A DNA stretch of 64,000 nucleotides from Paenibacillus sonchi (lineage in GTDB: Bacteria > Bacillota > Bacilli > Paenibacillales > Paenibacillaceae). Shown in pieces: positions 1-27,336 of the stretch (positions are counted from its first letter, which is position 1; each line of letters opens with the position of its first letter). The notes under the pieces are model-generated. The model did not search any database. It had not been told where the DNA came from and worked only from the letters and a program-made list of their open reading frames with translations. The stretch is from positions 62,001 to 126,000 of the forward strand of contig NZ_CP068595.1 in assembly GCF_016772475.1 (NCBI RefSeq), written 5' to 3'. The position numbers and the translations under genes are program-made.

Positions 1-2225
1 TTCCCATATTCGCCTGCCGCGAGCACTTCCCGCTCTGCCTTGCGGTCATAGATCCGAACCAATTGGCCAGCTGCATTCCATTCCAGAATATACAGCGGTG
101 TGGTCAGAACAGAATCCTTCCAAACAAATGGAATATCCTCTTCACAGACATCCATTGCATTTGCCTTAATTAAAGTTGTCCCCATCATTGGCACCGCAGG
201 AACCTCGATTAACCATTCATTTCCTAGGCGCTGGGAGCGCAAGACGCGGCCCGCTTCGTCCCTCCATTGCTTATTCTCTGTATCCGCACAGACTACAGTT
301 ACCAGATCAGTCCGATCAAAAAAGGCACTATTACAGACTGTATACTCTGTATCACAAGGTTCGCCGGACAAAGCTATAAGTCCCTTCAACGCCTCATTAG
401 CAGCACTTCTGCCTATCCGCTCTGCTTCCGCATACTCGATTCGGCTATCCTCATACACCTCCCGGATGGAAGAGCCGGGAATAATATCGTGAAACTGGTT
501 GCGCAAGATAATCTTCCATCCTTCAAACAGTTCCTGTGCCGGATACTTGGTGAAAGTACCTGATTCAGCCGCCATCATCACCTGCAGCCATTCCGCTTCA
601 CGGAACAACAATTCCAGCTTCCGATTCATTCTTTTGTTGTAGGCCTGGCTGGTATAGGTACCTCTGTGGTATTCCAGATACAGCTCTCCATCCCAAGTAT
701 GGACATACTGGTCAGTGTGCTTGATTGTTTCATTTAACCTTTCAAAATACTCGTCGGCCCGGCCTGTTTTTACATTTGGGATTCCAGGAATATATTCCAG
801 ACGACGGCGCATTTCAAGCATTTCCCGGTTCACTCCACCACCACCGTCGCCGTACCCATAAGAGAGCAGCAACTCACGATTCAGGTTTTTGTCACGGTAT
901 TTATCCCAGATTCCCTGGATGGAGTATGGCTCGATCGTACCATTGTAAGTGTAATAAGAGGCACTTGATTCTGGCCCTTCCGGAGTGGTAATGAAATGGG
1001 TCAATACCTCGCTGCCGTCAATCCCTCTCCACTGGAACGTATCATGCGGCATGCGGTTGTACTGGTTCCAGCTTATCTTTGTTGTCATGAAAGTGTCGAT
1101 GCCCGATTTGCGCAGAATCTGTGGCAAGGCCCAACTGTATCCGAAGACATCCGGCAGCCACAGGTATTTGCATTCCACGCCCAACTCTTCCCTGAAGAAC
1201 TTCGTCCCGTACAGAATCTGGCGAACAAGTGACTCTCCGCTAGTCAGGTTGCAATCTGCTTCCAGCCACATCGCTCCGCCAGCTTCCCAGCGTCTCTCAC
1301 TAACCCGCTCGACGATTTCCGCGAACAATTCGGGGTAATCCTGCTTGATATATTCATAGAGCTGCGGTTGTGTCTGCAGGAAGATATATTCAGGGAATTG
1401 CTTCATCAGCCGAAGCACGGTGGAGAAGGAGCGGGCTGCTTTCTCCCGTGTATGGGTTAGCCGCCACAGCCAGGCAACATCAATATGCGTATGTCCGACG
1501 GCAGTCACCGTTACCGGATGCTCCTTCTTCAGTTCGGCCATCTGTGTTCGCAATAGTACGTCTGCTTCCAGAATGGAGGAATAGAAAGCTTCACTACCGG
1601 GCTTCGACCAATCCAGTATGTTAAACGCTCTGTTTAGAAGCATTAACAGCTCGTGCTTCTCCGTCTGATTGTCTGCAAGCTGTCTGCAAACCGCCAGCGC
1701 CGCCCGGCCGGTATAATACAAATTGTCCGCCGCTTCATCCAGATAAGTCAGTTCCGCCCGATGGAAGCGGTGCTCTTGGGAAGCCGGTTTTCCGCCGCCC
1801 TCAAGTCCTGACCACAGCCGGAAAGTTAATTCCAGGGTGCAGCCTGCCGTATCGCTCTCCAGAAATACTTCCTGATGGTTGCTATCCACCCCCTGATACG
1901 GTTTGCCGTTCAGGAACAATAGAGACTCGAAGCCGCTATTGTTACCCGCTCCGGTTCTGCCGAAGTCGAAGCGTGCAACAATCCTTCTGCCTTCCCATTC
2001 CCGAGGGATAACCACCCTCTTGTGCAGCCACAGATACATATCGCGGCCAGTCCAGCAGTCCCCCAGGCGGTAAGTCTTAGTGCTTTCCAGAACCGGAGGA
2101 TATGTACCGTTCTCCCCCTCTTCATCTTCCATCGCCAGCCACTCCTCAAGAACTATACTTTCCCTATGTCTATAAGTCTCCAACTCGGTAATGCGCGCAG
2201 ACAGTTTTTCTTCCGTCCAAAACAT
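1..2225 (-). CDS. Alpha-mannosidase, glycoside hydrolase family 38 (3' end cut by window edge)
   Basis: The leftward frame is open from an ATG at 2225, with AGGAGG just upstream (2232-2237), to the window edge, so the C-terminus is missing. About residues 244-255 read GHTHIDVAWLWR, the zinc-binding and catalytic signature of GH38; further on PDVFGYSWALPQIL matches the region holding the nucleophilic Asp. GH38 enzymes hydrolyse alpha-linked mannose and bind zinc. No signal peptide is visible (it begins MFWTEEKLSARI), so it should act in the cytoplasm. It is the last visible gene of module A, 27 bp after the PL8 gene, and is presumably co-transcribed with it. In the proposed pathway it would remove the alpha-mannose left on the glucan backbone after PL8 and GH88 have acted. 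Family assignment is firm; the natural substrate is inferred from context. Confidence 0.9.
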   Translation of the reverse strand, partial: MFWTEEKLSARITELETYRHRESIVLEEWLAMEDEEGENGTYPPVLESTKTYRLGDCWTGRDMYLWLHKRVVIPREWEGRRIVARFDFGRTGAGNNSGFESLLFLNGKPYQGVDSNHQEVFLESDTAGCTLELTFRLWSGLEGGGKPASQEHRFHRAELTYLDEAADNLYYTGRAALAVCRQLADNQTEKHELLMLLNRAFNILDWSKPGSEAFYSSILEADVLLRTQMAELKKEHPVTVTAVGHTHIDVAWLWRLTHTREKAARSFSTVLRLMKQFPEYIFLQTQPQLYEYIKQDYPELFAEIVERVSERRWEAGGAMWLEADCNLTSGESLVRQILYGTKFFREELGVECKYLWLPDVFGYSWALPQILRKSGIDTFMTTKISWNQYNRMPHDTFQWRGIDGSEVLTHFITTPEGPESSASYYTYNGTIEPYSIQGIWDKYRDKNLNRELLLSYGYGDGGGGVNREMLEMRRRLEYIPGIPNVKTGRADEYFERLNETIKHTDQYVHTWDGELYLEYHRGTYTSQAYNKRMNRKLELLFREAEWLQVMMAAESGTFTKYPAQELFEGWKIILRNQFHDIIPGSSIREVYEDSRIEYAEAERIGRSAANEALKGLIALSGEPCDTEYTVCNSAFFDRTDLVTVVCADTENKQWRDEAGRVLRSQRLGNEWLIEVPAVPMMGTTLIKANAMDVCEEDIPFVWKDSVLTTPLYILEWNAAGQLVRIYDRKAEREVLAAGEYG

Positions 2226-2252
2226 ACTTCAACCTCCTATTCATAGTCATGT

Positions 2253-4499
2253 TTATATTCCAAACTCAACTTGGAACGACTCTCCTCCTGCACCGTCAGG
2301 ATCAAACCAAAGCTTCACCTTGCCGATTTCACTATGCTCAACAGCTATTCGGTCTGACTTGTTAATCACACGGGTAACAGGCATATTAATTTCGATTTCG
2401 ATCGGACGGCTCTGCATTTGAGTCGGATCGGCTATTGCCAAGGTCAAGCTTGTCGAATTCTTCTGCAGGATAAGGGATGCTTGACTACTACAAGCAATAA
2501 TCCCGCTTCTATACCAGCCTGACTTCCAGAAATGCACTGCTGCTATTCCCAATTCCGAATCTTCTACCGCATGCACCTGATCATTTAATTCCAAGATTCT
2601 CAGACTTGAATGCTCAGCGAAACTAGCCGTTTCCTCTTCGTTAAAACCAGGCAGGAGCACATATACGTAGTGGTCGCCCTGAGGGGCTTCACCATGATCA
2701 AACCACAACGTTTGGTAGAACCTTTCGATTCTCTCAGGGGAACCGAAATCGTTAATTTCCTTCCAACTGCCTTGCCGCTGCTCGCACAAGGCATGTACAC
2801 TGCATTGTTGAGGAAAGAAGATACCTACATCCGCTTCGTCCACACTGCCGGTCATATGAATCCATTTGGGGTGAATTGTATCCACATTGCCAAGATTCCG
2901 GCATATCTTTTTCCCGTCCGCTCGAATGCTATTATCACCACAGTGATTTAATTTCCGGTTTTCGATTATCGTTTCCACTTTAGCCGAATTACAGCCCTTA
3001 ATATCCGAACCTAAGGCAACGATACGGTTTCCGAACAAAAACCAGCTTTTGAGCGCTGTTAGTCCATCGGCTTCATTAACTACATCCTTAAGCTCCATGG
3101 CAATGGCGCCGTATCGGTTATGAAGCACAGCCCCGCCAACAAAAGTCCGGTTGCTTAAGCGGCCTTGCCCGGCTCCATCCTTCTGCCGTGCGTCTGTTAC
3201 TGTAGTTCCAGGCAGGCGGTATGGATCAACCGTCGGCCAGTAGCAATCCGCATAATGTCCCAAGTCATTATTGTACAGATGGCTCATTCCATACGAAGTA
3301 TACCAGCCCTTCAGATTTTCTCTGTTGATAGATTCATAACTATATATCCGGCTGGAGAACATACTGATGGAGAAAGCAAATCCAGGACCCTGCAGCACCG
3401 CCCGATCCATATGTGCAAACATCTTGCAGAAAGCCTCTTCCCAGGCAGGCTGTATTTGTTCATTGTCCAGCAATGCTCTAGCTTGTTCTGCAGTATCCGG
3501 CGGTGATCCGGCTATATAGGATTTATATGTGTCCGCAACAATCCACCCTTTCACTCTGGAGAGCAGCCGTGCCTGATCCGCCTCATCCAGTATGCGCGAG
3601 AAGCGTAAGCAGGAGGTGATGACCGAATGTCCGCTTTCATGATTCTGCGAATCCTCCCGAGAGACTTCCCTGCCGCTCACCATATCCAGCATAGATCCCC
3701 TGAACACAAGCGGTACAAAGGAACGGTCAATCCACTTGGCCGTTAAATCCCTTGCCTCACCAGGCATTTCCCAAGGGGTAGCGTGAAGCCACACCATCAG
3801 GCGAACCACATCATGCAGCAGTGAAACCCCATATCCGCCAGTGTAGGCATACTTGTCATGCTGTATAAAGGAGCCATCCTCGTAGAATCCATCCCCTTCA
3901 CTGGCATTCCTGAACAGCGGAAGCAACGCGCTTCGAGCGGCGACCATCTTCTGCCTATCGTCCTGAATAACGGCCACCAAGGCAACCGCAGAAGATTTCC
4001 AGACCAGATTCGCTCCTGTTGAAGGCGGGGCCTTAGCTGTGAACCACTGCGCATGAAACGCCGGATTGCCCACATATTTGTCTACAGGGAGGAGCAAACG
4101 CTCTATAAGCTCTTTATCCAGCAACTCTTCCATGAGAAATAGGGTCTCGAGCAGAGCGATCGGCACACCAATCTCCCAATACCACCAGTTTCCATAGGGC
4201 TGACACATTTCGTTGTATCTATGCTCAGACAGCCATTCTAATCCATAAATGATCTTTAGCCTTAATGTATAGTCCATATAATAGGGACACTTGGAAGACT
4301 TCAGAGCGATCGACATCTCTCTCAAGCGGCCGATGATCATAAATAAATCAGAAGCATTCTCCTGATACGGAATATCAGCCCACAGCAGCTCCTGATGAAA
4401 GAGCATCGTTTGCTGAGCATTGCTGACCTTCTGCAGTGATTCATGACGAAGCGTATCTCCAGAGATATATTGCAACCATTTGTTTTTTAAGTTCAGCAT
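2253..4499 (-). CDS. Polysaccharide lyase family 8 (xanthan/hyaluronan-type lyase), cytoplasmic
   Basis: The protein is about 748 residues with the PL8 alpha/alpha-toroid followed by beta-sandwich domains. Catalytic-type residues are visible, numbered from the upstream Met at 4505: Asn166 in STGANLVWKSS, His216 in GSFIQHDKYAYTGG and Tyr225 in TGGYG, plus an Arg-rich GREVSR segment. The Asn-His-Tyr spacing resembles that of PL8 xanthan lyases. Family members cleave next to uronic acid by beta-elimination, leaving a 4,5-unsaturated uronate. There is no signal peptide, unlike the secreted xanthan lyase of Bacillus sp. GL1, so I infer an intracellular enzyme acting on imported oligosaccharides. 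I chose the second Met (4499) because AAGGAG lies 9 nt upstream of it but only 3 nt from the Met at 4505. The GH88 gene lies upstream and GH38 downstream. Hyaluronan or chondroitin specificity is not excluded by sequence alone. Confidence 0.88.
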   Translation of the reverse strand: MLNLKNKWLQYISGDTLRHESLQKVSNAQQTMLFHQELLWADIPYQENASDLFMIIGRLREMSIALKSSKCPYYMDYTLRLKIIYGLEWLSEHRYNEMCQPYGNWWYWEIGVPIALLETLFLMEELLDKELIERLLLPVDKYVGNPAFHAQWFTAKAPPSTGANLVWKSSAVALVAVIQDDRQKMVAARSALLPLFRNASEGDGFYEDGSFIQHDKYAYTGGYGVSLLHDVVRLMVWLHATPWEMPGEARDLTAKWIDRSFVPLVFRGSMLDMVSGREVSREDSQNHESGHSVITSCLRFSRILDEADQARLLSRVKGWIVADTYKSYIAGSPPDTAEQARALLDNEQIQPAWEEAFCKMFAHMDRAVLQGPGFAFSISMFSSRIYSYESINRENLKGWYTSYGMSHLYNNDLGHYADCYWPTVDPYRLPGTTVTDARQKDGAGQGRLSNRTFVGGAVLHNRYGAIAMELKDVVNEADGLTALKSWFLFGNRIVALGSDIKGCNSAKVETIIENRKLNHCGDNSIRADGKKICRNLGNVDTIHPKWIHMTGSVDEADVGIFFPQQCSVHALCEQRQGSWKEINDFGSPERIERFYQTLWFDHGEAPQGDHYVYVLLPGFNEEETASFAEHSSLRILELNDQVHAVEDSELGIAAVHFWKSGWYRSGIIACSSQASLILQKNSTSLTLAIADPTQMQSRPIEIEINMPVTRVINKSDRIAVEHSEIGKVKLWFDPDGAGGESFQVEFGI

Positions 4500-4633
4500 G
4501 GGCATTCTCTCCTTGAGCCAAATTTTCTCCCCTTAAGCATAGAATGAGCGTGCCTGCATATCTATGCAGAATACACAGGAAATCGTGATCAAATCCATGC
4601 TTCTTGAAGAAACATGAATACCCGTTATTCCTC

Positions 4634-5755
4634 CTACCAGAACATACGTAAATTTTGACGGATACGAAGTAATGCCTCTAAGAAGAAATAATCTCCCCAA
4701 ATCGTACACTCGTCGATTCCCCAGCCTCTAGGCTTGTTATATACCCCATGTTTTAATAGACCGTTTGATTTCGGATGATCCACTGTAGTATATAATTCGG
4801 ATAACGACTCAAGCATCTCATGGGCAATACTTGTATACTTGAGTTTGTCCGTATCGTCTGCCGGCAAGTGCTTGACCATCTCCAGCATCCCGCAAATAGC
4901 AATGGCAGCAGCCGAACTGTCCCGCTCCTGATTATCTCCATCCTTGAACACCAGATCCCAAAATACAACTTTATCTACAGGTAGATGTGATACAAAATAA
5001 TCTGTTACCGCTTTGGCTGTCTGTAGCAACGAAATATCACCCGTATATACATAACTAAGCGTGAATCCATAAATCCCCCATGCTTGTCCGCGGGCCCAGC
5101 AAGAATCATCAGCATAACCTTGATGGGTATTTCCATATTTAGGTGCGCCTGAAATCGGGTCCATATAAAAAGTATGGTAGGTGGAATGATCAGGCCGCAC
5201 AAGATAAGCAGCCGATTGCTTTGCATGTCTATGAGCCATCTCAGCATACCGGACATTTCCTGTCTCAGACGCCGCCCAATACAACAGGGGCAAATTCATT
5301 AGACAATCAATAATCATCCGTCCACGCTCAACAGGATTCTGCAAGTTTCCCCAAGCCTGAATGATTCCCGCCGTATCAAAGTAACGCTCTGTCAGCAAGT
5401 CGGCAGCCTTCAGGGCCATTTCCTTCGCTTCGGCATTTCCTGTAATCCGGTAAGCCGCAACCGCAGATAGACTATACAAGAATCCCAAATCATGCGTATC
5501 GGTTTCGATTTTCCCTTCCACTCTGTGTCTAAAGCTGGCTAGCTGATGCTCCGCAGCCTTCCTATATTTCTCTTCATTCGTTGCTTCATAGGCAAGCCAG
5601 AGTATTCCATTCCAGAATCCTGTCGTCCAATCCACATTTCCGGTGCCTGAGTAGATCAAATTGTGGCTGGAAGCAGCTGGAAAGCTATCTGTGAATTGCA
5701 GCAGGTTACCGTCAATTCGTTCCAAAACGAATTGTTCTATCGGGTTAAGATTCAT
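4634..5755 (-). CDS. Unsaturated glucuronyl hydrolase, glycoside hydrolase family 88
   Basis: This 373-residue protein matches the usual length of the GH88 unsaturated glucuronyl hydrolase of Bacillus sp. GL1 (377 residues). The two key aspartates are in place: Asp89 in TDTHDLGFLYS and Asp150 in MIIDCLMNLP. The N-terminal DWTTGFWNGILWLAYE and C-terminal IWGDYFFLEALLR are family hallmarks. The enzyme hydrates the double bond of the unsaturated uronate made by a lyase and releases it from the oligosaccharide. It has no signal peptide and should work in the cytoplasm. The start overlaps the end of the response-regulator gene by 11 nt, with GGAGG 5 nt upstream. The PL8 gene follows 134 bp downstream, which pairs the enzyme with its product-forming lyase. 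A second, divergent GH88 gene lies at 15116-16219. Confidence 0.92.
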   Translation of the reverse strand: MNLNPIEQFVLERIDGNLLQFTDSFPAASSHNLIYSGTGNVDWTTGFWNGILWLAYEATNEEKYRKAAEHQLASFRHRVEGKIETDTHDLGFLYSLSAVAAYRITGNAEAKEMALKAADLLTERYFDTAGIIQAWGNLQNPVERGRMIIDCLMNLPLLYWAASETGNVRYAEMAHRHAKQSAAYLVRPDHSTYHTFYMDPISGAPKYGNTHQGYADDSCWARGQAWGIYGFTLSYVYTGDISLLQTAKAVTDYFVSHLPVDKVVFWDLVFKDGDNQERDSSAAAIAICGMLEMVKHLPADDTDKLKYTSIAHEMLESLSELYTTVDHPKSNGLLKHGVYNKPRGWGIDECTIWGDYFFLEALLRIRQNLRMFW

Positions 5756-7378
5756 ATTTACCTCCAGAATTTTGTATTATCCCATTGGGTTTGTCGGAAT
5801 TACTTTGTTTCCTATAGGCCATCGGACTAACCTGAAATAGCTTTTTGAATGCTTTGGAGAAATATGATAAATTGCTGAACCCGGCAATCAGAGCAATTTC
5901 ACTTATGGGTTTGTTGCTGCCCCGAAGTAGTTTTTTACTGAGCTGCATCTTCCGGGATAAAATATATTCTGTCAGTGATTCCTGTGTCTCTTTCTTGAAT
6001 AACCTGGATAAATAAGCTGGATTCAAATGTACCAGTTCTGATAGTTCCATACGTTCAATTCTTTCATCTAAATGAGCCTCAATATATTCCTTTACCTGTC
6101 TTACAATAGAGTCTTCGTTCATCTTTATCGCATGGATAGCCATACCGGTCACTTTTATCGCCCATTCCTCCATCTGGTTAATCGTCTTAGGGAATGACGT
6201 CGGTTCAAGAACCCCAGCTTCTCCGAAAACTTCTTGTATAGACTTTCCTTGTTTTTGCAGTACCAAATAGATACATTGCAGCACATTATGATAATAGATC
6301 AGAAGCGCCTCCGCATTGCCTCCTTCATCTTTGAGTCGAGAAAGTGTCTTATGAATTTGCTGACGAAGGATTACTCCTTCATCTTGTTCAATTAGAGCCG
6401 GCCAATCCGATAGATTTACAGATGGAAGTCGAGCAAACTTCTCGTTAGCCGAGATGAATAAATGTACAGAATGTGACTTTGCAATATTGTCATATTCCAT
6501 TTTGAGCAAATGTTCATACCCTTGTTTGGTCTGCTCAATAGGTAATTTCTCCCCAATATAACAGGAGGCTCTACAGTAGAAATGCCGTTCACAATAGGTG
6601 ATGAAATTCTCACAACGTCCCAAGAGCACTTCGATAGCTACTGGCTGCAGCATTTCACAGTACACAATGACAAGATTCACTCCGTTCCGGTCCTGCACGG
6701 TACAACCGGGGAATCCATCCAGAATCATTTCCTCCGCTACTTTACGCATGGCATATTCCATTAACTCTTCGTCCCGTTCGGTGAAGACCTGAGTCCATTG
6801 TTCAATACTAATGAGTATAGGCAATACATTCATCTGCCCTGGGTCAAAAGAGACTTTGAATTCATGTAGCGTTTGTTCCAGTCGTTCAGCAGTAGTAGAC
6901 AGTCTTGCAGACAGTAAATCTTGCCAAAAACGCTCAACAAGAACATTTTTTTCGACTCCCAGAAGGCCTGGGCGATTTGTTGTGTCTGTTTCCACTCTCT
7001 CTCCTCTTTGATTGAAACAATAATCCTGCCTACAACATGTTGCAATGTGTCATAATCTACAGGTTTGAGTAAATAATCTTGAGTTCCAAGCTGGATCGCC
7101 CGTTGCGCATACTTAAAATCGGCATGGCAGGTCAAAAAAAGCGTAGCTATATCAGGATAATTCTCACGAATCCACGCAATGAGTTCAAAACCGTCACCTT
7201 CAGGCATTTCAATATCGCAAATCACAACATGAATCTGAGCCTCACGGATAATCTCTTTGGCACTCTGAATATTGTAAGCCTCATAAACACCCGAGAAGCC
7301 TAAAGACGACCATTTCACCCCTAATCTCAGCCCTTCAACCGCATAAATTTCGTCATCTACGATTAACAGGTTAAACAT
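5745..7378 (-). pseudogene. YesN-like response regulator with AraC-type DNA-binding domain, interrupted by a -1 frameshift
   Basis: The first frame (from 7378) encodes a CheY-like receiver with Asp55 in VVICDIEMPEG and Lys in DYLLKPVD. The second frame (to 5745) encodes the linker and a C-terminal AraC/XylS helix-turn-helix pair ending near SYFSKAFKKLFQVSPMAYR. They meet at a run of seven A residues on the coding strand (6946-6952). One extra A would give a continuous protein of about 544 residues, close to the 548-residue paralogue at 21642-23288. The start ATG overlaps the kinase stop by 8 nt (GATGTTTAA), with GGAGG upstream. The regulator should be phosphorylated by the adjacent kinase and control module A. 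A GTG at 6995, with GAGGAG 5 nt upstream in the second frame, could also start a separate DNA-binding protein. The break may be a sequencing error, a real mutation, or slippage at A7. Confidence 0.8.
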
Positions 7379-9113
7379 CCGGAAATTCGCCTCCATCACT
7401 TTGCATAGGAATCCTCACGGTGACAGCCACCCCATGGGAGTCCAGATTTGAGAAACTCATCCCAGCCTGACCCCGATAGAATATTTTCAACTGATTGTAT
7501 ACGCTCCAGATTCCAGTGTGTTCTCTTGTAAATGAGCTGGTCTCCATTAATCCAGATAATGATTCAACAAGCTGAGCCGGAAATTTCTTTCCATTGTTCT
7601 CGATTGTAATCTCACAGAAATCTGTTATGCCGTCAGTGATGCGATGAATCCGTACCTTAACTTGAAATACGCTCTTTCCTGTCGTAAATCCATGCTTCAA
7701 CGCATTTTCCACAAATGGATGAATCGTTAGAGGCGGAATTCGGACATTTTTTAGTGAGTCTTCAATGTCAAAGTCATATTCTAAATGCTTGGGAAACCTC
7801 AGCTTTTGGATTTCAATATAGTGTTCAATATTGTCCATCTCTTCCCATATGTGTATCGAATGTTCTCTCAGACGGGCAAAGAAACGCAAATAATTAACCA
7901 TGTGGGAAGACATGCGCTGAATCAAGTCATATTTTCGCGCTTCCGCCAAATTATAAATAATATTAAGTGAATTATATAAAAAATGGGGATTCATCTGCAG
8001 CTGCAGCTGCTTCAGTTCTGCTTTATGTGAGCGTATCTCTTCCTCATACATACTAATTTTCAAATCCTGAATCTGAGAGGCCATGGAGTTAAAGGTAGCG
8101 CTGATCAAAGAAAATTCATGAGACAAATTCGTTGATAACCTGGTATCAAGATTCCCTTTACTGATTTGTCGCATGCCTTTGATCAGATAATGAATAGGCC
8201 GAAGCACTAGTTTTTGCAGGTTTACCAGCAAGAAGAATAGTACGAGCGCAGCAGCAAAAGGAACGGCGTAACTTATTCGTTGAAATAATGGAACCTGTTG
8301 CAGAATCACATTTTCCGGTATTAGAGTTATAATCTCTAAATCCGCAAGCCGTAAGGTATGCTGGACGAGCAAATACCGTTCTTCTCCCCTTACAGTTTGA
8401 TAGGACTTAGTCTTAGCATGAATTACCGCGCTCACCGCGTCAGCTGTATCCGGAGGAGCCGTTGTGAGCCATTCCCCCTTGCGGTCCAGGAAAAATGCTT
8501 CCATATGCCGTTCTTCAGAGACGGACTGAAGAGGTAATAGCAAGTCATCGTTTCGGATGAGCGCACCGACATAAGTATTGGTATCCGTCTCAACAATGCG
8601 TAACAGATATTGTTCATTTCCAATCCGGCAATGTCTCCAGCCTTCAACAAAGGCTTGCAAATTCGATGCTTCGTTTGGAGAAAATAGTCTTTTGATATAC
8701 TGCTCGCTTTGGCTGGATTCTTGGAAAGACTTTTGAGAGGTCTGCACCATGATCAAATCTTGATTAAATGGATTGTATACAAAATTCAGGTAAAAGCTTG
8801 TATTGTAAGTAGAATCCGAGTACAGCTTGTTGACAACCTGTGATAGGGTTATTGTGTATCTGTCCTTATTGTCAAGGGTGTACACCAAAGAACGTATAAG
8901 AGGCTCCTGATTCGCCAATTTATACAAATAGCTGCTCCCATTTTCTAAGGTCTGATCGATTTGGTCACCGTACAAGGTTAGAAGGGCTGAGTTGTAATTA
9001 GCCACTTGCTTCCTGACGACCTGGCTGGAATAGTGATTGGTGTACAACAAAAAGCAAACAAGGGGGATCGTAATGACACTAAATAAGAGAATTACCTTCA
9101 CCCGTAAAGTCAC
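7371..9113 (-). CDS. YesM-like sensor histidine kinase
   Basis: The protein is about 580 residues. It has an N-terminal membrane segment (VILLFSVITIPLVCFLLY), an extracytoplasmic sensor region, a second membrane segment (PFAAALVLFFLLV), a HAMP domain, a His_kinase domain with His377 in MNPHFLYNSLN, and a HATPase domain with PFVENALKHG. The frame is open further upstream to 9293, but that stretch overlaps the coding end of the binding-protein gene. I chose the GTG at 9113, preceded by GGGGGAG at 8 nt, giving the normal family length. It should autophosphorylate in response to an extracellular sugar signal, possibly via the adjacent binding protein, and donate phosphate to the regulator whose start it overlaps. 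A strong hairpin separates it from the upstream gene and may lower its expression relative to the binding protein. Confidence 0.9.
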   Translation of the reverse strand: MTLRVKVILLFSVITIPLVCFLLYTNHYSSQVVRKQVANYNSALLTLYGDQIDQTLENGSSYLYKLANQEPLIRSLVYTLDNKDRYTITLSQVVNKLYSDSTYNTSFYLNFVYNPFNQDLIMVQTSQKSFQESSQSEQYIKRLFSPNEASNLQAFVEGWRHCRIGNEQYLLRIVETDTNTYVGALIRNDDLLLPLQSVSEERHMEAFFLDRKGEWLTTAPPDTADAVSAVIHAKTKSYQTVRGEERYLLVQHTLRLADLEIITLIPENVILQQVPLFQRISYAVPFAAALVLFFLLVNLQKLVLRPIHYLIKGMRQISKGNLDTRLSTNLSHEFSLISATFNSMASQIQDLKISMYEEEIRSHKAELKQLQLQMNPHFLYNSLNIIYNLAEARKYDLIQRMSSHMVNYLRFFARLREHSIHIWEEMDNIEHYIEIQKLRFPKHLEYDFDIEDSLKNVRIPPLTIHPFVENALKHGFTTGKSVFQVKVRIHRITDGITDFCEITIENNGKKFPAQLVESLSGLMETSSFTREHTGIWSVYNQLKIFYRGQAGMSFSNLDSHGVAVTVRIPMQSDGGEFPDV

Positions 9114-9173
9114 TTGCCTGTCTCCCCCTTCTGCTTCGCTTTTCTCCTCATCGTTTCCAACCCTGTAACAAGG

Positions 9174-9211
9174 GGAAAGAATGAACCCTCTACCGAGGGT
9201 CCATTCTTTCC
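9174..9211 (-). promoter_or_regulatory. Intercistronic hairpin between binding-protein and kinase genes
   Basis: A 17-bp stem with one mismatch (9174-9190 pairing with 9195-9211) and a 4-nt loop lies just after the binding-protein stop codon. On the transcribed strand no long U-run follows, so it looks like an mRNA-stabilising or partial-termination hairpin. This is a known way to make more binding protein than downstream products. A comparable hairpin follows the second binding-protein gene at 16255-16285. Confidence 0.7.
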
Positions 9212-9231
9212 GAAACCACATTCGAATCTGT

Positions 9232-11781: not shown

Positions 11782-11796
11782 GTGTTTCCCCTCCAC

Positions 11797-12723: not shown

Positions 12724-12852
12724 AGTTTGTCCCACCTTTTTCTTTTCTATGAACTAATCATACGTTATAGAAACATCGGAGACACACCGCTCAGATGACC
12801 TGATTTTGTACTTTCGTGACATATAGCAAGCCGTATTATTCCGCGCGAACGC

Positions 12853-16219: not shown

Positions 16220-16250
16220 TTCTATCGTCTCCCTTTCCCTTGTACAGGTG

Positions 16251-16285
16251 AAAAGCAAGATGCCCTGAAACAACAGGCATCCTGC
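16251..16285 (-). promoter_or_regulatory. Intercistronic hairpin after the second binding-protein gene
   Basis: An interrupted stem (16255-16267 with 16274-16285) followed by a short U-run on the leftward strand (16251-16254) lies between the binding-protein gene and GH88. It looks like a leaky terminator or mRNA-stabilising hairpin, and parallels the one after the first binding-protein gene. Confidence 0.6.
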
Positions 16286-16303
16286 CATGATTCAACCCAT
16301 CAA

Positions 16304-19816: not shown

Positions 19817-19921
19817 GTCCATTACTCCTTTCATGGACTTATTATAGAACCATCTCTATACGGCTACGATGATGTATTCCTGTAAAAACGTGATCTTTAA
19901 ACGTCCGTTTGCCGCTACACG

Positions 19922-21664
19922 TCATTCGGGCCGGCGCAGGGGCAGGGTGATAATCGCCCGGGTCCCCCCTTCCTCGCTTCGTTCATAGGTTAACCCGAAC
20001 GCCTCCCCGTAATGGAGCTGAATACGCTGATGCACATTTCGAATTCCGTATCCCTTCGCACTATGCTCTCCCTGCATAATGGCAGAGAGCTCCTCTAGAT
20101 TTACAGGCAGGTGCCCATTGTCCTCTACGATGAAGCGGAGTGTATCTTCACTTTTAACGGCAGATACCCGTAACTCTCCTTCTCCATCCATTCCGCGCAC
20201 GCCATGAATAATGGCATTTTCAATCAGAGGCTGAATAATTACCTTGGGAGTTTCATAGTCTCTTAGCGTTTCATCAATCTGCCACCAGACTTCAAAGGTG
20301 TCCGGGTAGCGTTTTTCTTGCAACCGTGTATAGGCCTTCGCATGCTCTATCTCTTCACCAATAGTAATCATTTTCCGGCCTCTGCTTAGACCAATACGCA
20401 GCAGCATGGACAAGTCCCTGACCATTTCGCCTACCTCGGCATTGCCGCTGTCTAGCGCATACCAGTATATCGAGTCCAAGGTATTGTACAGATAATGAGG
20501 GGTGATCTGGGATTGGAGCATCAGCAGCTCATACTCCTTCTGTTTCAGCTGCATCACATAATTTTCTTCAATCGAATAATCCAGTCTTTTGGTCATTTTC
20601 ACAAATGATCCATGCAGAATGCCGAATTCATCATTCCTGAGCGGCTCTTCAGACCATGACAGCGTTTTGCCGGGTTCATATACTTTCATAACAGAAACAA
20701 GCTTCACTACGGGCTTAACAACAAGTCTTACCAAATAGAGAACAAACGTGAGGACAAAAGCTAAAAAAATGATGGAGATGAACACAAGCATCTTTTGCAC
20801 CCAGATTTGTTTACCGGTAATGGACGCTAACGGGATCTTGTACAATAATCTAGTGTGAAATTTAGAGCTGTCCGAATAGGCGTAAAGCCACTCTTCCCCG
20901 CCTTCTTCTGCGAAGGTGTATCCATAAGAGGCCTCAGGTTCTATATTCTTGTGAAGCTCCGCCGGAGAAATGCTGCCTGAACCGGCTGACATTAACAGCT
21001 CCTCATTATCATTGAATAAAAAAACACCAGCAGTAGAGGGCAGCTCCACAGATACCATATCCCGGGTTAAAAGAACCTCTACCTTATTGACAACCAGTAG
21101 GCCGATAGCCTCATCATAATTTCTGGGATTGAGAATACTGCGCATGAAGGAGAGCGTTTTCTCTCCTGAATCTGAATGCGTGATGCGCAGTGCCCCGCCT
21201 CCACTGAGATCCATGCCGCTTACCATAGCGTCAGGCAATCCGCTATTATCTTTATCTAAATATTTGAATCCTTTTGTTTTATGGGAAAGATCAAAAGGCG
21301 TATCCCGCCGCTCTATATTTTTCAAATAAATCGCGTATTCCGTGCTGCCGGTAGACCAGCTCTCCAGAATGTTATCGGCCTGCTGGATTTCATTCAGTGT
21401 GTCAATTCCTGTCCAAAAGCTGTACCCTGCCGGATTGCTGAAAAACTGACTATCCAGCAGCGTTATCGTCCTGTCATTGATCGCCGATATGGTTTTATCT
21501 ATTGTCGTATGATTTTGTTTAACCAGTTGCAGTGTTGTACTGCCGACTTCCTCCTTTATGGTGTCTACAGCCACATAAGCTGAAATCCATCCCACCACTA
21601 TAAAGGGGAGGACAATAAACACAAGGAAGGCCAGCGTGACTTTATGTTTCAGTTTCAGCTTCAT
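19922..21664 (-). CDS. YesM-like sensor histidine kinase, module B
   Basis: The 580-residue protein has an N-terminal membrane segment (VTLAFLVFIVLPFIVVGWI), a sensor region, a second membrane segment near MLVFISIIFLAFVLTFVLYL, HAMP, His390 in SQITPHYLYNTLD, and a HATPase domain with IIQPLIENAIIHG. I chose the ATG at 21664, with AGGAGG upstream. It overlaps the end of the regulator gene by 23 nt, indicating translational coupling. It should sense an extracellular carbohydrate cue and phosphorylate the module B regulator. It is the same length as the module A kinase, but module B has the regulator first and the kinase second. Confidence 0.92.
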   Translation of the reverse strand: MKLKLKHKVTLAFLVFIVLPFIVVGWISAYVAVDTIKEEVGSTTLQLVKQNHTTIDKTISAINDRTITLLDSQFFSNPAGYSFWTGIDTLNEIQQADNILESWSTGSTEYAIYLKNIERRDTPFDLSHKTKGFKYLDKDNSGLPDAMVSGMDLSGGGALRITHSDSGEKTLSFMRSILNPRNYDEAIGLLVVNKVEVLLTRDMVSVELPSTAGVFLFNDNEELLMSAGSGSISPAELHKNIEPEASYGYTFAEEGGEEWLYAYSDSSKFHTRLLYKIPLASITGKQIWVQKMLVFISIIFLAFVLTFVLYLVRLVVKPVVKLVSVMKVYEPGKTLSWSEEPLRNDEFGILHGSFVKMTKRLDYSIEENYVMQLKQKEYELLMLQSQITPHYLYNTLDSIYWYALDSGNAEVGEMVRDLSMLLRIGLSRGRKMITIGEEIEHAKAYTRLQEKRYPDTFEVWWQIDETLRDYETPKVIIQPLIENAIIHGVRGMDGEGELRVSAVKSEDTLRFIVEDNGHLPVNLEELSAIMQGEHSAKGYGIRNVHQRIQLHYGEAFGLTYERSEEGGTRAIITLPLRRPE

Positions 21665-23288
21665 CCCGCTTCCCTCCTCTGGTCTTTTTCCGAAATTCTG
21701 CCGGTGTAAGACCCAACACTCTTTTGAACATCCGGCTGAAGTGCTCAGGCGATTCATAACCTACCGCGTAGGCGATTTCATATCGTTTCTTGTCCGTAGT
21801 ACTCATCAGACGCTTGGCTTCTTCCATCCGCAGTGCCGTAACATAATCCCAGAGGTTGGTTTTCATGTCGCGTTTGAAAATATAACCAAGATGTGCTGCA
21901 CTGAAATGGACCTCTTCGGAAATATCCTGAATTTTCAGCGCCGGATTACGGTAATTTTTCTGGATGTAGCTGGTAATCCGTGAGATTACGTTCTGATCTC
22001 TGGCTTGGGAGAGCTCCTGCAAAAATAGAACCGAATCCTCAATATAACGATGCAACCGCTCCAGCTTCTGCTGTCCGGTAAGCCCCTGGAACACCATATC
22101 CGGGTTGAAATCATAGAGGGAAACCCCGTTACCCTGTCCGTATTCTACCAGCAGTCCGTAAATCCGGTAGATCAGCATGCCGCAATAGCTGTTCATAACC
22201 TCCTGTGACTGATCAGACACCAGCAGCTGACTAAGTATTATTTGCGGATTCACGTACCCTATTGATTCTACCGCTGATTTCATCTGCTCCATGAACTCAC
22301 TAACCTTGCCCATCCACACCACCATACTCAGATTATCCTGCACGGCGAGGTCGTGATAATAGAAGACTCTCTGTCCAGGATGGACTTTGTTCCACTCCGC
22401 GGCCGTATCCGCTTCATCCATCAGCTCAGGGAGCCTCAGTACATCCCCGGCTAGTGTGCTGAGGCCGACCGTCGCCTCTACATTCAGATACTGCTTCAGA
22501 TTCATAGCGATCATCTGCCCGATCATATGAATCCGGGAGTGTACTCTAACCTGTGGGTCCTCCATTTCCTCGGCAGACAGCTGGATAATGCTGATGATGG
22601 AATGGCCGAAGCCGTTGAAGGTCAAGCTGTTCCATTCCGATAGCGTTTCGTTCATAATATTGATCGCGGCATATTTCAATAATTTGCGGTCATGCAGGGT
22701 CACCTTCTTATGGCTGAAGCCGGCCTGGCTATAATCAATGCGGCTGGAGATCACGCCAAAGAATTGCCCTGTCAACAGCTCCCCCAGCTCACCGGTCACA
22801 TCTTCGATATCCTTCTGCGTCAGATTGCGCTGCGTAACCAGCTCCATCAGCCACTCGTTGCGCCTGGATTGCTCCTGAATCTGCCTGCTGTCCTCCGGTG
22901 AGTTTGTTCCAGGAAGCTCCTTTTGGGTCAGCGCTTTGCGTACTACACGGAGCAGTTCTGTCCGCTCTACCGGCTTCACCAGATAATCCTTAGCACCGAG
23001 CCGTAGCGATTTTTTGGCAAAATCAAACTTCTCATGGGCAGAAATGACAATCACCGGGACATTCCACTGCTCCATATAGATGTTTTCCATTAATTCAATT
23101 CCGCTCATCCTGCCCATCTGTATATCGGTAAGCACCAGATCAAAGCTGTCCATCCGTAAATAATCTATCGCTTCGAATCCATTGATTGCCGTTTCAACAT
23201 CAGTGATGTTCATATCCGAAGCGAGCAGGAAATTCCGGATCCCCGCACTCACTCTCGGCTCATCATCTACAACGAGAATTTTATACAT
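21642..23288 (-). CDS. YesN-like response regulator with AraC-type DNA-binding domain, module B
   Basis: About 548 residues. The receiver domain has Asp55 in LVLTDIQMGR and Lys in DYLVKPVERTE. A long linker follows, and the C-terminal AraC-type double helix-turn-helix ends with YESPEHFSRMFKRVLGLTP. The start at 23288 is preceded by a G-rich ribosome site (GGGGGG); the in-frame Met at 23300 is less well placed. It is the first gene of module B and diverges from the GH9 gene across a 313-bp region, so it may control both transcripts. It is the intact counterpart of the frameshifted regulator at 5745-7378. Confidence 0.92.
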   Translation of the reverse strand: MYKILVVDDEPRVSAGIRNFLLASDMNITDVETAINGFEAIDYLRMDSFDLVLTDIQMGRMSGIELMENIYMEQWNVPVIVISAHEKFDFAKKSLRLGAKDYLVKPVERTELLRVVRKALTQKELPGTNSPEDSRQIQEQSRRNEWLMELVTQRNLTQKDIEDVTGELGELLTGQFFGVISSRIDYSQAGFSHKKVTLHDRKLLKYAAINIMNETLSEWNSLTFNGFGHSIISIIQLSAEEMEDPQVRVHSRIHMIGQMIAMNLKQYLNVEATVGLSTLAGDVLRLPELMDEADTAAEWNKVHPGQRVFYYHDLAVQDNLSMVVWMGKVSEFMEQMKSAVESIGYVNPQIILSQLLVSDQSQEVMNSYCGMLIYRIYGLLVEYGQGNGVSLYDFNPDMVFQGLTGQQKLERLHRYIEDSVLFLQELSQARDQNVISRITSYIQKNYRNPALKIQDISEEVHFSAAHLGYIFKRDMKTNLWDYVTALRMEEAKRLMSTTDKKRYEIAYAVGYESPEHFSRMFKRVLGLTPAEFRKKTRGGKRDEAETET

Positions 23289-23531
23289 GATGCCCCCCAT
23301 TTTTCATTGAAAATTCACCGTATGTCAACGCCAGACGGTATCAAGAATACCCTTTGTCTCACAGTACACTCGCTATAAATAAGCGTAGATGATCTATTTT
23401 ATCTTTTTTGTGATCTATATCAGGATTTTTTATCGCAAGGCTCTGGGCGGCCTAGTTACAGTCATAGTATAGATCACATATTTCATGTAATTCATCATCG
23501 ATTAGTGATAGTAACTCTTTTATGCTCTATT

Positions 23532-23545: not shown

Positions 23546-23601
23546 TATTTGAAGAGAGGAGATTATGTTACGCGATATTCAACAATGAGGAGGTTAAAAA
23601 G

Positions 23602-26600
23602 ATGTTCAGAAGAAGCCAATTCACCTTGAAACTCAGAAAATTATTTTCTGTAAGCCTTAGTCTGTTGTTAATTATATGTACTCTTACTCTATCACCCAAA
23701 CCCACCATGGCTGCGGTTACACCATTGCCAGGACCCGAACACCCTCTCCTGTATGATGATTTTGCCGGTGGGGGACTATTCAAACAAAATTGGATGAACT
23801 GGTACAATCAGGACGGTGGTAGTGGTACTTTCATAAAAACGACAGAAGGCACTCGTTCCATTGGAAAGTTCACACAAACCCCAAGTTCCTCCTCTTCTTG
23901 GGCCAAGTTTCAACCTATGAACGAGACCTTTGACCTGTCAGGCTATCGTTATATGAACCTTTCTCTGCAGAATGCAGGGTATGCCCAGTCACTAATTCGT
24001 GTTGTTATCGGCGATGGCACTACAAATTACAATCTGACCGGAGGTTATGTTCCCGCATCGAATACCTGGACTGACCTGCAGTTTGATCTGGATGCATTGA
24101 TGCCTAAGATTCAGAAGAAGAAAGTCAAACTGGAAATTTGGCTTAGACAAGCCGGAGGAACTTACGGGGAGATGCTAATCGATGACATTGTGTTTACAAC
24201 GGCATCCAGTGGTACCGCTCCCCAGTTAAGCCCGGCAGGGATGAGCGCGAATACAGATAGCAGCTATAACCAGAACACTAATTTTACCTTCGAAGCCACC
24301 TATATCGACCCAGATAATGAGGCTCCATTTGCAGTTCAGGTGATCATTGATGACATTGCCTATAACATGCGTGAAACGGATCAAGCCGATGTAACCTACA
24401 CAGACGGTAAACACTACAGGTTCATGACGAAGCTTCCGGCGGGGGCCCATTCCTACTATTTCCGCACCTCAGATACGACTTCGAATGAAGTCAATACTGG
24501 AATTCAAAATTTGAATGTAGTTCAATCCTCTTCTGTGATTGATATTGTTGTAAGCCAAGCCGGCTACAGTGCAGACGATGTAAAGAACGCAAAATTGATA
24601 TCAACCACAACAGTCACAGACGCTACTTATGAAATATTGGATGGAACTACTGTTATCGCCTCAGGAACCATGACCTATGAAGGCCTTTATTGGAACAAAC
24701 ATGTCTACTCTATCGGCTTCTCAGACGTCACTGCTTCCGGGAACAGCTACAGGGTGCGGAGTAATCAGGTTTATTCCTACTCGTTTGAAATCACACCGAA
24801 CCTATGGGATCAATACAAGGATGAAATGACTGCTTTCTACCGTCTTCAACGTGCCTCAGTAGCCACAAGTGATGCTTATCCTGAGGGTTACAGCAGTGTA
24901 GCTCCCTCAGCTAAGCTCTACCATGCCGCAGGCCACCTGGATGACGCCCAGTCTGCTGACGGCCTCACCCATTATGATCTGACGGGCAGCTGGTACGATG
25001 CCGGCGATTACGGCAAATACGGCGGCAACCAATGGGTAGGTGCGGAGATTGCTTTGGCTTATACGCGGTATGCAGACAAAGACAGCGTAAAGTACGATAA
25101 CGACAGCAATGGTATTCCGGATCTGGTTGACGAAGCGGTCTTCGGCAGTGAATATCTGATTAAGTTCGCCGACCAATTGGGCGGGGAAATGTATAATCTC
25201 AGAAATAACGCTTCTTTCGTTCATCCCGAGAAATCTACCGACAATATCTCCGGCACAGCCGATGACCGGAAGCTGACGGATCTAAGTGTCGGCGGCTCCG
25301 CCAAGTCAGCGGGCACTCTTGCCGCCACAGCGCGCGCGATCCGCACGGCGATTAACGAAGGTGACATCGCGTCATCTCAGATTGCAGAGCTTACGGATTT
25401 TGCCAACCAATGCGAGACTGCCGCGGTTACCTTTTATAATTATGTGGTCGCCAATCCTGACGGTCCCATCGGATCTTATTCCACCAGAGGAGGCATCCCC
25501 AATTCCAAGCTGCTGGCTGATGTTGAGTTGTACTTGCTGACCGGCGATATCCAGTATCGGAATGCAGCTACGGCTACAATAAGCGCATTGACCTTGAGTG
25601 ACATCTCCTCCACCAACTACTGGGATATGAGCCCTATGTCCATGGCCGAATTCTATCCGGTTGCCGATGCTGAAACACAATCCCATATTCATAGCCTCTT
25701 AAAAGGGCAAGCAGATTTCTTCCTCTCCATGTCCGATGATATACCGTATGGTGTACTGAACCAGTTCAAAAATTTCGGTGTAAACGAACCTCATGCTTCT
25801 TATCTAGGGGACATGCTGCGGTACTATGAATTATTTGGTGATCCTGCGGCACTGCAGGCGGTCGTGAAGGGAATGTACTGGCTGTTCGGAGAGAATCCCT
25901 GGAATATCAGCTGGGTATCAGGCATTGGTACCCATCATGTGATGTTCCCACACACCCGCTATAATGAGGAATCCAATACTGCGGGTGATACCGGGATTAT
26001 CCTTCCCGGTGCCATGGTCAGCGGACCCAATATGAAAGATCCCAAAAATAAGAGCAGTGTAAGTCCCTGGTATGAGGACCGTTCCCTCTATCTGGATGAT
26101 ACGAATCAGTGGCGCTATAACGAGTTCAGCATTAGCATTCAAGCAGGACTCCTATATACAGTCATGGGACTCAGTGCAACTCCGGGAACAGGTGTGGACA
26201 ATGCAGCCAAGCCGCCCGCCTTGCCGTTACTTTCTCCAGTGATCGGAGAATGGATCCGCGGAAATGTAACTGTTTTTGCCCAGGCGGGAGATCAGCTGAG
26301 CGATGTTGAATATGCAGCAACCGGATTGCCTTATCAACCCATGACCGTCTCAGGGAATGTGTATTCGACTGTAAGCGGTGCGGTCTACGGTGCGGTCTAC
26401 GCTGCGGTCATCGATGAGAGCCAATCCTTGCCTTATACGAACCGGAGAGTGGATGTCCGTGCCAAAGATCCTTCCGGCGCATACACCTACAGCTCGACTC
26501 ATTACACCGTTGCTCCACCGTTGCCGGACCCCTCCACTCCGCTGTTATATGATGATTTTGGAGGAGCTGGCTTCTGGGGTGGCTCTGCTGCCAACACGAC

Positions 26601-27336
26601 ATGGGTCAACTGGTATAACCAAAATGGCGGAACGGGAACGTTCACCAAGCTTACAGCAGACGGACGTTCTGTCGGCAAATTCACTCAGGTTCCGGCAAAT
26701 GTGAATTCAGCGGCTAAATTTCAGGCATGGAACGATGTGGTCGATCTGAGCGGCTACCAATATTTGAATATCACGCTTAAGAATCCTGCATCTCCTGACC
26801 TCAGGACCCGGATTGAAATCTATGACGGCAAAAGAACATATAATCTAACTGGAGGATGGGTAGAAGTTCCAGCCAATTGGAGCGATCTGCAATTTGATCT
26901 CAATGCACTTACCCCGGCCATTGACAAAAAGGCACTAAAGTTGTCTATTTGGCTCAAACAAAATACAGTCACTCCAGGAGAAATGCTAATTGATGAAATT
27001 AAGGCTACGAATAAAGTCAGCGGAAGTGCGCCAACGTTAACTTCAGGAGGAGTAGATCAACCCCAAGGCACTCCACAAACGGAGTTTACTTTTACTGTCA
27101 CTTATACAGATGCAGACAATCAGGCCCCATTTACAATGGAGCTTGTCTTAGACGGCGTCGTTCGAAAAATGCAGCCTGCTGTTCCGGGTGACACTAATTA
27201 TTCAGACGGCAGAATCTATCAATACAGTACAAAGCTACCTCCTGGTCAGCATTCATACTACTTCAACACCACCGATACTTTCACCGATGCCGTAAGTACA
27301 GAAGTTCAGAGTGCTCCTGAAGTCAGCCTTGAATAG
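23602..27336 (+). CDS. Secreted multimodular glycoside hydrolase family 9 endoglucanase/xanthanase
   Basis: The 1244-residue protein starts with a long signal peptide (hydrophobic LFSVSLSLLLIICTLTL, probable cleavage near residue 38). The module order is: beta-sandwich carbohydrate-binding-like module (about 48-200), Ig-like module (about 205-305), GH9 N-terminal Ig-like domain beginning near VVSQAGYSADD, GH9 catalytic domain (about 400-860), Ig-like stretch, then a second copy of the first two modules (about 977-1240). Catalytic residues are visible: Asp466 and Asp469 in WYDAGDYGKYG, the HVMFPHTR region, and Glu841 in RYNEFSISIQAG. The layout resembles the GH9 endo-xanthanase described from Paenibacillus nanensis, whose C-terminal module binds xanthan. 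It should cut the cellulose-like backbone outside the cell. The start has AGGAGG 8 nt upstream. Plain cellulase activity is the main alternative. Confidence 0.9.
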   Translation: MFRRSQFTLKLRKLFSVSLSLLLIICTLTLSPKPTMAAVTPLPGPEHPLLYDDFAGGGLFKQNWMNWYNQDGGSGTFIKTTEGTRSIGKFTQTPSSSSSWAKFQPMNETFDLSGYRYMNLSLQNAGYAQSLIRVVIGDGTTNYNLTGGYVPASNTWTDLQFDLDALMPKIQKKKVKLEIWLRQAGGTYGEMLIDDIVFTTASSGTAPQLSPAGMSANTDSSYNQNTNFTFEATYIDPDNEAPFAVQVIIDDIAYNMRETDQADVTYTDGKHYRFMTKLPAGAHSYYFRTSDTTSNEVNTGIQNLNVVQSSSVIDIVVSQAGYSADDVKNAKLISTTTVTDATYEILDGTTVIASGTMTYEGLYWNKHVYSIGFSDVTASGNSYRVRSNQVYSYSFEITPNLWDQYKDEMTAFYRLQRASVATSDAYPEGYSSVAPSAKLYHAAGHLDDAQSADGLTHYDLTGSWYDAGDYGKYGGNQWVGAEIALAYTRYADKDSVKYDNDSNGIPDLVDEAVFGSEYLIKFADQLGGEMYNLRNNASFVHPEKSTDNISGTADDRKLTDLSVGGSAKSAGTLAATARAIRTAINEGDIASSQIAELTDFANQCETAAVTFYNYVVANPDGPIGSYSTRGGIPNSKLLADVELYLLTGDIQYRNAATATISALTLSDISSTNYWDMSPMSMAEFYPVADAETQSHIHSLLKGQADFFLSMSDDIPYGVLNQFKNFGVNEPHASYLGDMLRYYELFGDPAALQAVVKGMYWLFGENPWNISWVSGIGTHHVMFPHTRYNEESNTAGDTGIILPGAMVSGPNMKDPKNKSSVSPWYEDRSLYLDDTNQWRYNEFSISIQAGLLYTVMGLSATPGTGVDNAAKPPALPLLSPVIGEWIRGNVTVFAQAGDQLSDVEYAATGLPYQPMTVSGNVYSTVSGAVYGAVYAAVIDESQSLPYTNRRVDVRAKDPSGAYTYSSTHYTVAPPLPDPSTPLLYDDFGGAGFWGGSAANTTWVNWYNQNGGTGTFTKLTADGRSVGKFTQVPANVNSAAKFQAWNDVVDLSGYQYLNITLKNPASPDLRTRIEIYDGKRTYNLTGGWVEVPANWSDLQFDLNALTPAIDKKALKLSIWLKQNTVTPGEMLIDEIKATNKVSGSAPTLTSGGVDQPQGTPQTEFTFTVTYTDADNQAPFTMELVLDGVVRKMQPAVPGDTNYSDGRIYQYSTKLPPGQHSYYFNTTDTFTDAVSTEVQSAPEVSLE

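Follow-up and report, generated by a model that had tools for sequence, protein, structure and literature searches.

The described system closest to the locus reported here is the xanthan utilisation cluster of Paenibacillus taichungensis I5, published in January 2026 (PMC12827396), and the locus type is therefore already known. According to the main text of that paper, the I5 cluster spans 35,148 bp and contains one GH9, two PL8, two GH88, one GH38 and one GH92 gene together with transporters and regulators. All seven carbohydrate-active enzymes (CAZymes) were found solely in the supernatant of the xanthan-grown culture, and both induction by and growth on xanthan were reported. The recombinant GH9 and both PL8 lyases were active on xanthan, and pyruvylated mannose was removed by PL8b and not by PL8a. 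The cluster was present in one strain of 14, and its GH9 and PL8 were matched to Paenibacillus sonchi at 98.68 and 100%. We analysed a stretch of 64,000 nucleotides of the P. sonchi genome (7.78 Mb in three contigs), referred to as the window, which corresponds to C1:62001–126000, C1 being contig NZ_CP068595.1. The window contains a locus of this type. What is new is its setting: the locus is part of the cargo of an element of about 113 kb, designated B, that resembles an integrative and conjugative element (ICE).

Genes were called from an open reading frame listing and Pfam scans with curated cut-offs for each domain. Window positions are counted from C1:62001, and the stretch left of the window (C1:42001–62000) is designated L004. 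The first-pass annotation of the window had placed a xanthan locus at 1–27336. The genes it listed (GH9, PL8, two GH88, GH38, GH92 and two ABC importers) were all recovered, every one having one or more Pfam domains that scored over the curated threshold. The annotation did not mention the mobile setting, and its span was too short. It was cut by the window edge and the locus continues to the left, where Pfam identified in L004 a second PL8 gene (PL8b), another YesM/YesN pair (the third) and the third solute-binding protein (SBP). As bounded here, the locus extends over C1:54170–89336 (35,167 bp). The two YesM/YesN systems originally listed were present, except that the first YesN is not a single open frame, its two domains lying in overlapping frames. 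The reported absence of a β-glucosidase or cellobiose phosphorylase held for the scanned genes of the locus; elsewhere in the genome 15 GH3 and seven GH94 matches were found, two of the latter strong.

The seven CAZymes are the same as those of I5 and the length differs by 19 bp, a likeness that comes from the published description and not from a DNA comparison. The I5 CAZymes carry the locus tags V4D07_03230 (GH9), 03260, 03265, 03295, 03300, 03305 and 03310 (a PL8), leaving gaps of five tags between GH9 and the first pair and of five from the first pair to the last four (PMC12827396, main text). In P. sonchi GH38 is flanked by the lyases, and PL8a and GH92 are separated by GH88a, YesN1, YesM1, SBP1 and two permeases; this gene order gives the tag spacing of I5 when the split YesN1 is counted once. 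From the agreement of tag spacing, inventory and length we infer that the two loci are of the same type. As in I5, GH9 and one PL8 (PL8b) have a signal peptide and the other PL8 does not, the N-termini of the three proteins having been judged by eye without a predictor; PL8a is thus probably intracellular.

The gene content is that of a Gram-positive xanthan utilisation locus: a GH9-type xanthanase, xanthan-type PL8, GH88, α-mannosidase, an ABC importer and a regulator. Residues 314–1241 of GH9 scored 1090.8 bits against structure entries 6fhj/6fhn, compared with 73.1 bits for the next GH9. We take these entries, in which the chain is labelled only "protein", to be the P. nanensis-type Paenibacillus xanthanase. 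PL8b scored 1000.7 bits against the Paenibacillus xanthan lyase 6f2p, 940 against xanthan lyase 1j0m and 386 against the best chondroitin lyase. For PL8a the scores were 476 bits against 6f2p and 335 against the best hyaluronate lyase. The family-level search proposed as a check of the first-pass annotation thus placed both PL8 proteins nearer to xanthan lyases than to hyaluronate or chondroitin lyases. The GH38 and GH92 proteins matched α-mannosidases, the complete GH38 protein having Ams1-type enzymes as its best matches. Both GH88 proteins matched unsaturated glucuronyl hydrolases and conserved in the alignments two aspartates that we take to be catalytic. GH88b was the weakest Pfam call of the locus, yet scored 239 bits against the solved glucuronyl hydrolase 1vd5 and 213 against a streptococcal enzyme.

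A different substrate for the PL8 and GH9 enzymes, namely hyaluronan, chondroitin or a xanthan-like exopolysaccharide such as acetan, has to be weighed against this assignment. The PL8 family includes hyaluronate and chondroitin lyases, and GH88a speaks against xanthan in being slightly nearer to the streptococcal enzyme (363 bits for the best entry, against 349 for 1vd5), of which one entry is named unsaturated chondroitin disaccharide hydrolase. PL8b, on the other hand, retains the residues presumed to bind pyruvate, and the score gaps of GH9, PL8a and PL8b all favour xanthan enzymes. These gaps make hyaluronan, chondroitin or plain cellulose unlikely substrates. The I5 paper itself permits xanthan-like substrates not yet known, while reporting activity of the I5 enzymes on native xanthan (PMC12827396, main text). 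We consider another polymer very improbable. The score gaps and the active xanthanase and lyases of the like cluster in I5 support the xanthan reading, and assignment of the locus to the twin-lyase type of Gram-positive xanthan utilisation locus is well supported by sequence comparison.

The two lyases differ at positions that may bear on their division of labour. The residues of note in 1j0m are Asn194, His246, Tyr255, Arg313, Tyr315 and Arg612, with Tyr315 and Arg612 presumed to bind pyruvate. In alignments to 1j0m, PL8b keeps the equivalents of Arg313, Tyr315 and Arg612, whereas PL8a keeps only that of Arg313 and has D and F at the places of Tyr315 and Arg612. The pattern extended to relatives, designated by G numbers and drawn from a set of 100 genomes of the genus that includes the source genome. 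The Tyr315 and Arg612 equivalents were both missing in 13/13 PL8a proteins (source genome included) and both kept in 11/11 PL8b proteins, the latter alignment being without G018, from which no PL8b was obtained, and G113, which was filtered out. Absence of the two presumed pyruvate-binding residues fits the published failure of PL8a on pyruvylated mannose, and a residue-level hypothesis is offered on this basis for a division of labour by pyruvylation. Counting against a simple residue rule, 6f2p, which we take to be the P. nanensis xanthan lyase, also lacks both residues in the alignment. In the review text that was searched, none of Tyr315, Arg612 and Arg313 occurred; a passage of that review describes the P. 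nanensis enzyme as promiscuous toward pyruvylated and unpyruvylated forms.

The boundaries of element B were defined by repeats of the 3′ end of a tRNA-Leu(UAA) gene, with C1 treated as circular. Genome-wide, three copies of a 27-bp piece of this 3′ end are present, all in one orientation, and each copy belongs to an identical 60-bp repeat. The copy in the window lies in an intact tRNA gene (Table 1); those at C1:7457054 and C1:7320260 do not. They were found by the genome-wide pattern search; 14-base pieces of the tRNA region gave no other copies within C1:22001–126000. Element B is preceded in tandem, on its left, by a second element, A (C1:7320260–7457113, 136,854 bp). Within B's first 43.1 kb, colinear alignment to A covers 29.9 kb (25.6 kb at 89–94% and the rest at 65–72%), and the last 2.0 kb of B align to A at 84%. 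Compared with G027, A has shortened VirB4 and TrbL frames.

The backbone of B encodes ParA, ParB, a helicase/methylase, primase pieces, a MobL relaxase, a VirD4/TraG coupling protein, TrbL, a prepilin peptidase, RcpC, a T2SSE ATPase, RadC, a C39 peptidase and a VirB4/TraG-like protein. Matches to MobL (45.5 bits), T4SS-DNA_transf (189.7 bits) and the TraG P-loop (46.2 bits) lie inside the repeats, and all are full-length compared with G027. B resembles an ICE in having an integrase at one end, direct repeats at both ends, and a relaxase, coupling protein and type IV secretion system (T4SS) ATPase. Beside the primase, at C1:7474582–7477294 (L114), B also has a UvrD-like helicase gene and a gene without a Pfam match; the pair has no counterpart in the A, G027 or G070 stretches and is possibly a defence module.

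Empty sites were found in relatives. In G015, G018 and G007, sequence corresponding to that left of A ends at tRNA-Leu, about 60 bp before the right flank starts; the flank match beside the tRNA measures 98 bp (90% identity) in G015, 758 bp (81%) in G018 and 126 bp (85%) in G007. That the flanks meet at the tRNA in these three genomes implies that the end and the start of contig C1 belong together. A comparable element lies in G027, flanked there by the same tRNA-Leu repeats (at C1:246483 and 345435 in that genome), with a backbone at most 94% identical and other cargo. A coupling protein of at least 86% identity was present in 8/100 genus genomes, source genome included, and one of 43% in one more.

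The cargo of these elements was compared. That of A includes an α-galactosidase, a rhamnosidase, several GH3 proteins and an SLH-domain esterase-like protein (10 proteins scanned), and that of the G027 element includes GH43, GH42, GH28 and lyase-like genes (8 proteins scanned); both have importer and YesM/YesN matches. Eight elements were examined, A and one from each of seven other genomes, G027 being represented by one of its two coupling-protein places. Importer/YesM/YesN matches followed VirB4 in A, G027, G014, G064, G031 and G070, and none followed it in the G071 and G090 elements. In G031, G070 and G090 the fetched stretch, followed in the direction of the cargo, yielded no integrase. 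As these genomes are rich in importer and YesM/YesN genes, the cargo pattern is suggestive only. There are four YesM kinases in B against about 0.9 expected (Poisson P 0.012) and six in A and B together against about 1.9 (P 0.014), with the 59 genome matches taken as 58 given that two look like pieces of one gene; the enrichment is weak.

A GH9 of this kind over nearly its full length was found in 14/100 genus genomes, source genome included. One of the 13 others, G027 (66%), was left out, and stretches of 52–60 kb were taken around GH9 in the remaining 12 relatives. PL8a, GH92, GH88b, SBP2, YesM2/YesN2 and GH9 occur in one order in 12/12. PL8b was present in 11/12 (best segment 638 aa in G113 and 809 aa in G087) and was not found within the fetched stretch of G018. 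The I5 paper calls two lyases new among xanthan degraders (PMC12827396, main text), whereas both lyases are matched here, some partially, in 11/12 other Paenibacillus loci. By these matches the predicted twin-lyase arrangement recurs in other Paenibacillus genomes and is not confined to one strain. Within the same stretches, no GH38, GH88a orthologue or integrase was found in any of the 12 relatives, the 36–40% hits of GH88a lying at GH88b positions. The P. sonchi locus is thus an enlarged version, with GH38 and an extra module that includes GH88a. A search for a near-identical source of the GH88a module gave matches at the limit set in 23/100 genus genomes (source genome included), the best other being 67%. 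In the plasmid collection, GH9 was matched by four records, none over more than 80% of the query and all below 60% identity. A wider scan of named genomes returned 78 GH9 loci.

The most similar locus, that of G018, has 90.1% DNA identity over 14.7 kb, compared with 76–83% over an 8-kb chromosomal stretch; in G084, G063 and G095 the difference is small (87% for the locus, 82–85% for the chromosome). The left side of the G018 locus matches C1:7.13–7.14 Mb and not the block at C1:7298757 to which other relatives' loci lie close (see below), and G018 has no coupling-protein match. In the Paenibacillus monticola genome (G123), the contig that carries GH9 also has an integrase 88–91% identical, with broken frames, at a distance of about 228 kb from GH9, and further copies of the tRNA repeat are present. 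Beside the tRNA, G028, G031 and G015 were the closest among the relatives searched (96, 90 and 88% identity); none of the three had a xanthanase match. The lack of the locus in these closest relatives and the G018 figures speak for horizontal spread. In all, the locus appears in at least three genomic settings.

Several findings weigh against carriage by an element, and they would suit an ordinary chromosomal xanthan locus that lies by chance beside an unrelated integrase and tRNA. The integrase was absent from the fetched stretches of 12/12 relatives, as stated above, and was likewise not found in the flanks (≤10 kb) of 38 named GH9 loci (L009–L046; GH9 about 50–93% identical). In 7/12 relatives the locus lies 12–16 kb from one conserved chromosomal block, found here at C1:7298757. 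The tRNA-Leu end also recurs in G087, G114, G116 and G120, on the GH9 contig and 111–150 kb to the right of GH9, in the same broad region, and these four have no coupling-protein match. The missing integrase and the conserved block indicate that carriage by an ICE is not the usual state of the locus, which the ICE may have acquired from the region next to it. For P. sonchi itself, a chance neighbourhood is nonetheless extremely improbable. The locus lies here between two identical 60-bp tRNA repeats along with conjugation genes, the flanks that are joined in G015, G018 and G007 are here about 250 kb of elements apart, and the conserved block is outside both elements. We therefore regard it as highly probable that the twin-lyase xanthan locus is carried as cargo of the ICE-like element B at the 3′ end of tRNA-Leu(UAA).

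The remaining reservations concern the state of B. Several of its backbone frames are shorter than their G027 or G070 counterparts, including the primase, the 2206-aa helicase/methylase and frames of 330, 314 and 293 aa in those genomes, and one YesM and one YesN (YesN1) of the cargo are split. B also spans the end and start of contig C1, its first 20.5 kb being joined by inference; homology with A, G027 and G070 resumes exactly at base 1 of C1, where bases could be missing. The shortened and split frames would suit an element that is decayed or non-autonomous, its transfer lost or dependent on the help of another element. The relaxase, coupling protein, TrbL, VirB4-like protein and integrase, however, are full-length relative to G027. 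Split frames affect both cargo and backbone; in an assembly with a lambda-like contig they could be indel errors. Decay is a serious possibility, to which we give somewhat less weight than to its opposite.

For B as an ICE-like element with a xanthan cargo, the following course of events is envisaged. The secreted GH9 would cut the cellulose backbone of xanthan, and the secreted PL8b would take off the terminal mannose, most of it pyruvylated. Uptake of the penta- and tetrasaccharides so formed would fall to two or three ABC importers controlled by YesM/YesN. Inside the cell, PL8a is predicted to remove unpyruvylated or acetylated terminal mannose, GH88 the unsaturated glucuronate and GH38/GH92 the inner mannose, and cellobiose could be split by GH3 or GH94 enzymes encoded elsewhere. 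For transfer, the integrase and excisionase would recombine the 60-bp tRNA repeats, the circle would be nicked by the MobL-type relaxase, and the VirD4-like coupling protein with VirB4/TrbL-like parts would pass it to a new cell, with re-entry at tRNA-Leu.

The P. sonchi xanthan genes thus form a set in DNA apparently built to move, which may explain the spread of the ability. Xanthan degraders are scattered unevenly over bacterial species, and conjugative carriage is a testable reason for this, including the case noted above of one strain among 14. A broader proposal, that a family of tRNA-Leu ICEs ships glycan loci between Paenibacillus species, that the xanthan locus reached I5 in this way and that xanthan-eating strains arise by conjugation, is tentative, and we lean slightly against it.

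Table 1. Positions of the genes of the xanthan locus and of the right-end features of element B, in window coordinates unless prefixed C1
Feature	Position	Strand	Evidence or remark
PL8b, second lyase, 930 aa, Golvesin_C domain, secreted	C1:58094–60886, left of window		Pfam
GH38 α-mannosidase, 1051 aa	1–2225, cut by window edge; complete at C1:61070–64225	−	Pfam GH38N, 306.8 bits
PL8a xanthan lyase	2253–4505	−	Pfam PL8; 476 bits to xanthan lyase 6f2p
GH88a unsaturated glucuronyl hydrolase	4634–5755	−	Pfam; in extra module absent from 12 relatives' loci as fetched
YesN1 response regulator	5745–7399, two overlapping frames (receiver 6830–7399, AraC-type HTH 5745–6995)	−	Pfam, open reading frame listing
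YesM1 sensor histidine kinase	7371–9293	−	Pfam
SBP1 solute-binding lipoprotein, ABC importer 1, with DUF3502	9232–10767	−	Pfam
Two permeases, ABC importer 1	10891–11796, 11797–12735	−	Pfam
GH92 α-mannosidase	12919–15018	−	Pfam; matches α-mannosidases
GH88b unsaturated glucuronyl hydrolase	15116–16288	−	Pfam, 33.1 bits (cut-off 26.6)
SBP2 solute-binding lipoprotein, ABC importer 2, with DUF3502	16304–17875	−	Pfam
Two permeases, ABC importer 2	17953–18864, 18881–19834	−	Pfam
YesM2 sensor histidine kinase	19922–21757	−	Pfam
YesN2 response regulator	21642–23300	−	Pfam
GH9 endo-xanthanase, 1244 aa, secreted (signal peptide by eye)	23602–27336	+	Pfam; 1090.8 bits to 6fhj
Sigma-like regulator, first of right-end module	27564–27950	+	Sigma70_r4, 27.8 bits (cut-off 24.1)
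Small HTH protein, excisionase-like by position	28842–29111	+	HTH_17, 26.3 bits, just under cut-off of 27
Tyrosine integrase, 403 aa	29189–30400	+	Phage_integrase and SAM-like N-terminal domains
Right attachment-site copy, 60 bp of tRNA-Leu 3′ end	30566–30625		Identical to copies at C1:7457054 and C1:7320260
Intact tRNA-Leu (TAA), integration target	30566–30655	−	
Right-hand part of element B	1–30625		B, 113,104 bp: C1:7457054–7477532 joined to C1:1–92625

Further observations were made around the locus and in the assembly. The cargo adjoining the locus (C1:47480–54075) encodes an RpiR-type regulator, a hydantoinase/oxoprolinase-like protein, a DctM-like transporter and an FAD oxidoreductase. 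A sensor kinase at C1:44193–45970 (L004:2193–3970) lies in two frames, as do YesN1 and several backbone genes, through assembly indels or decay. A third PL8 gene, far from the locus, is located at C1:2081072–2081764 in an open frame of 1621 aa, and outside the element, at window 34486–35973, there is a GH26 protein with a PA14 domain. Contig C3 (48,499 bp) matches over its first 20 kb, at 100% identity, a record of 48,502 bp that is catalogued as a Salmonella plasmid and includes phage genes. In size and genes C3 looks like phage lambda, a common sequencing control DNA, and the contig is probably an assembly contaminant. Lambda-like records also occur in the plasmid collection under other hosts.

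Compared with other mobile elements, B shares its right-end organisation with ICEs of Bacillota that have Tn916/ICEBs1-type integrases, of which ICEBs1 also uses a tRNA-Leu gene. The genes for a sigma-like regulator, a small HTH protein and a tyrosine integrase stand in a row, the repeats are 60 bp of tRNA-Leu, and the coupling protein is VirD4-like. That protein is below 60% identity to all 3289 plasmid records matched, and its best plasmid relatives are annotated "CD1115 family" in 7/8 among the matches listed. Unlike the Tn916/ICEBs1 type, B has a MobL-type relaxase, ParAB, Tad-pilus-like genes and a large polysaccharide cargo. In gut Bacteroidetes, ICEs bear polysaccharide utilisation loci, for example for porphyran. 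These are alike in that a conjugative element carries a whole glycan pathway, but the locus here is of the Gram-positive type, with ABC importers and YesM/YesN, in Paenibacillus and on another kind of element.

Among the literature matches listed, none dealt with a xanthan locus carried by an integrative element. The main text of the I5 paper uses none of the terms integrase, horizontal, transpos and tRNA, and has "mobile" only for the chromatography phase (PMC12827396). The nearest published parallel for the setting is Paenarthrobacter ilicis 6C (2025; PMC12772297), in which, from the parts of that paper considered, xanthan genes likewise lie on a mobile replicon beside conjugation genes (mobF and a T4SS protein). 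There the replicon is a 147-kb plasmid with a Microbacterium-like set without GH88, whereas in P. sonchi a Paenibacillus set is carried by an integrated element.

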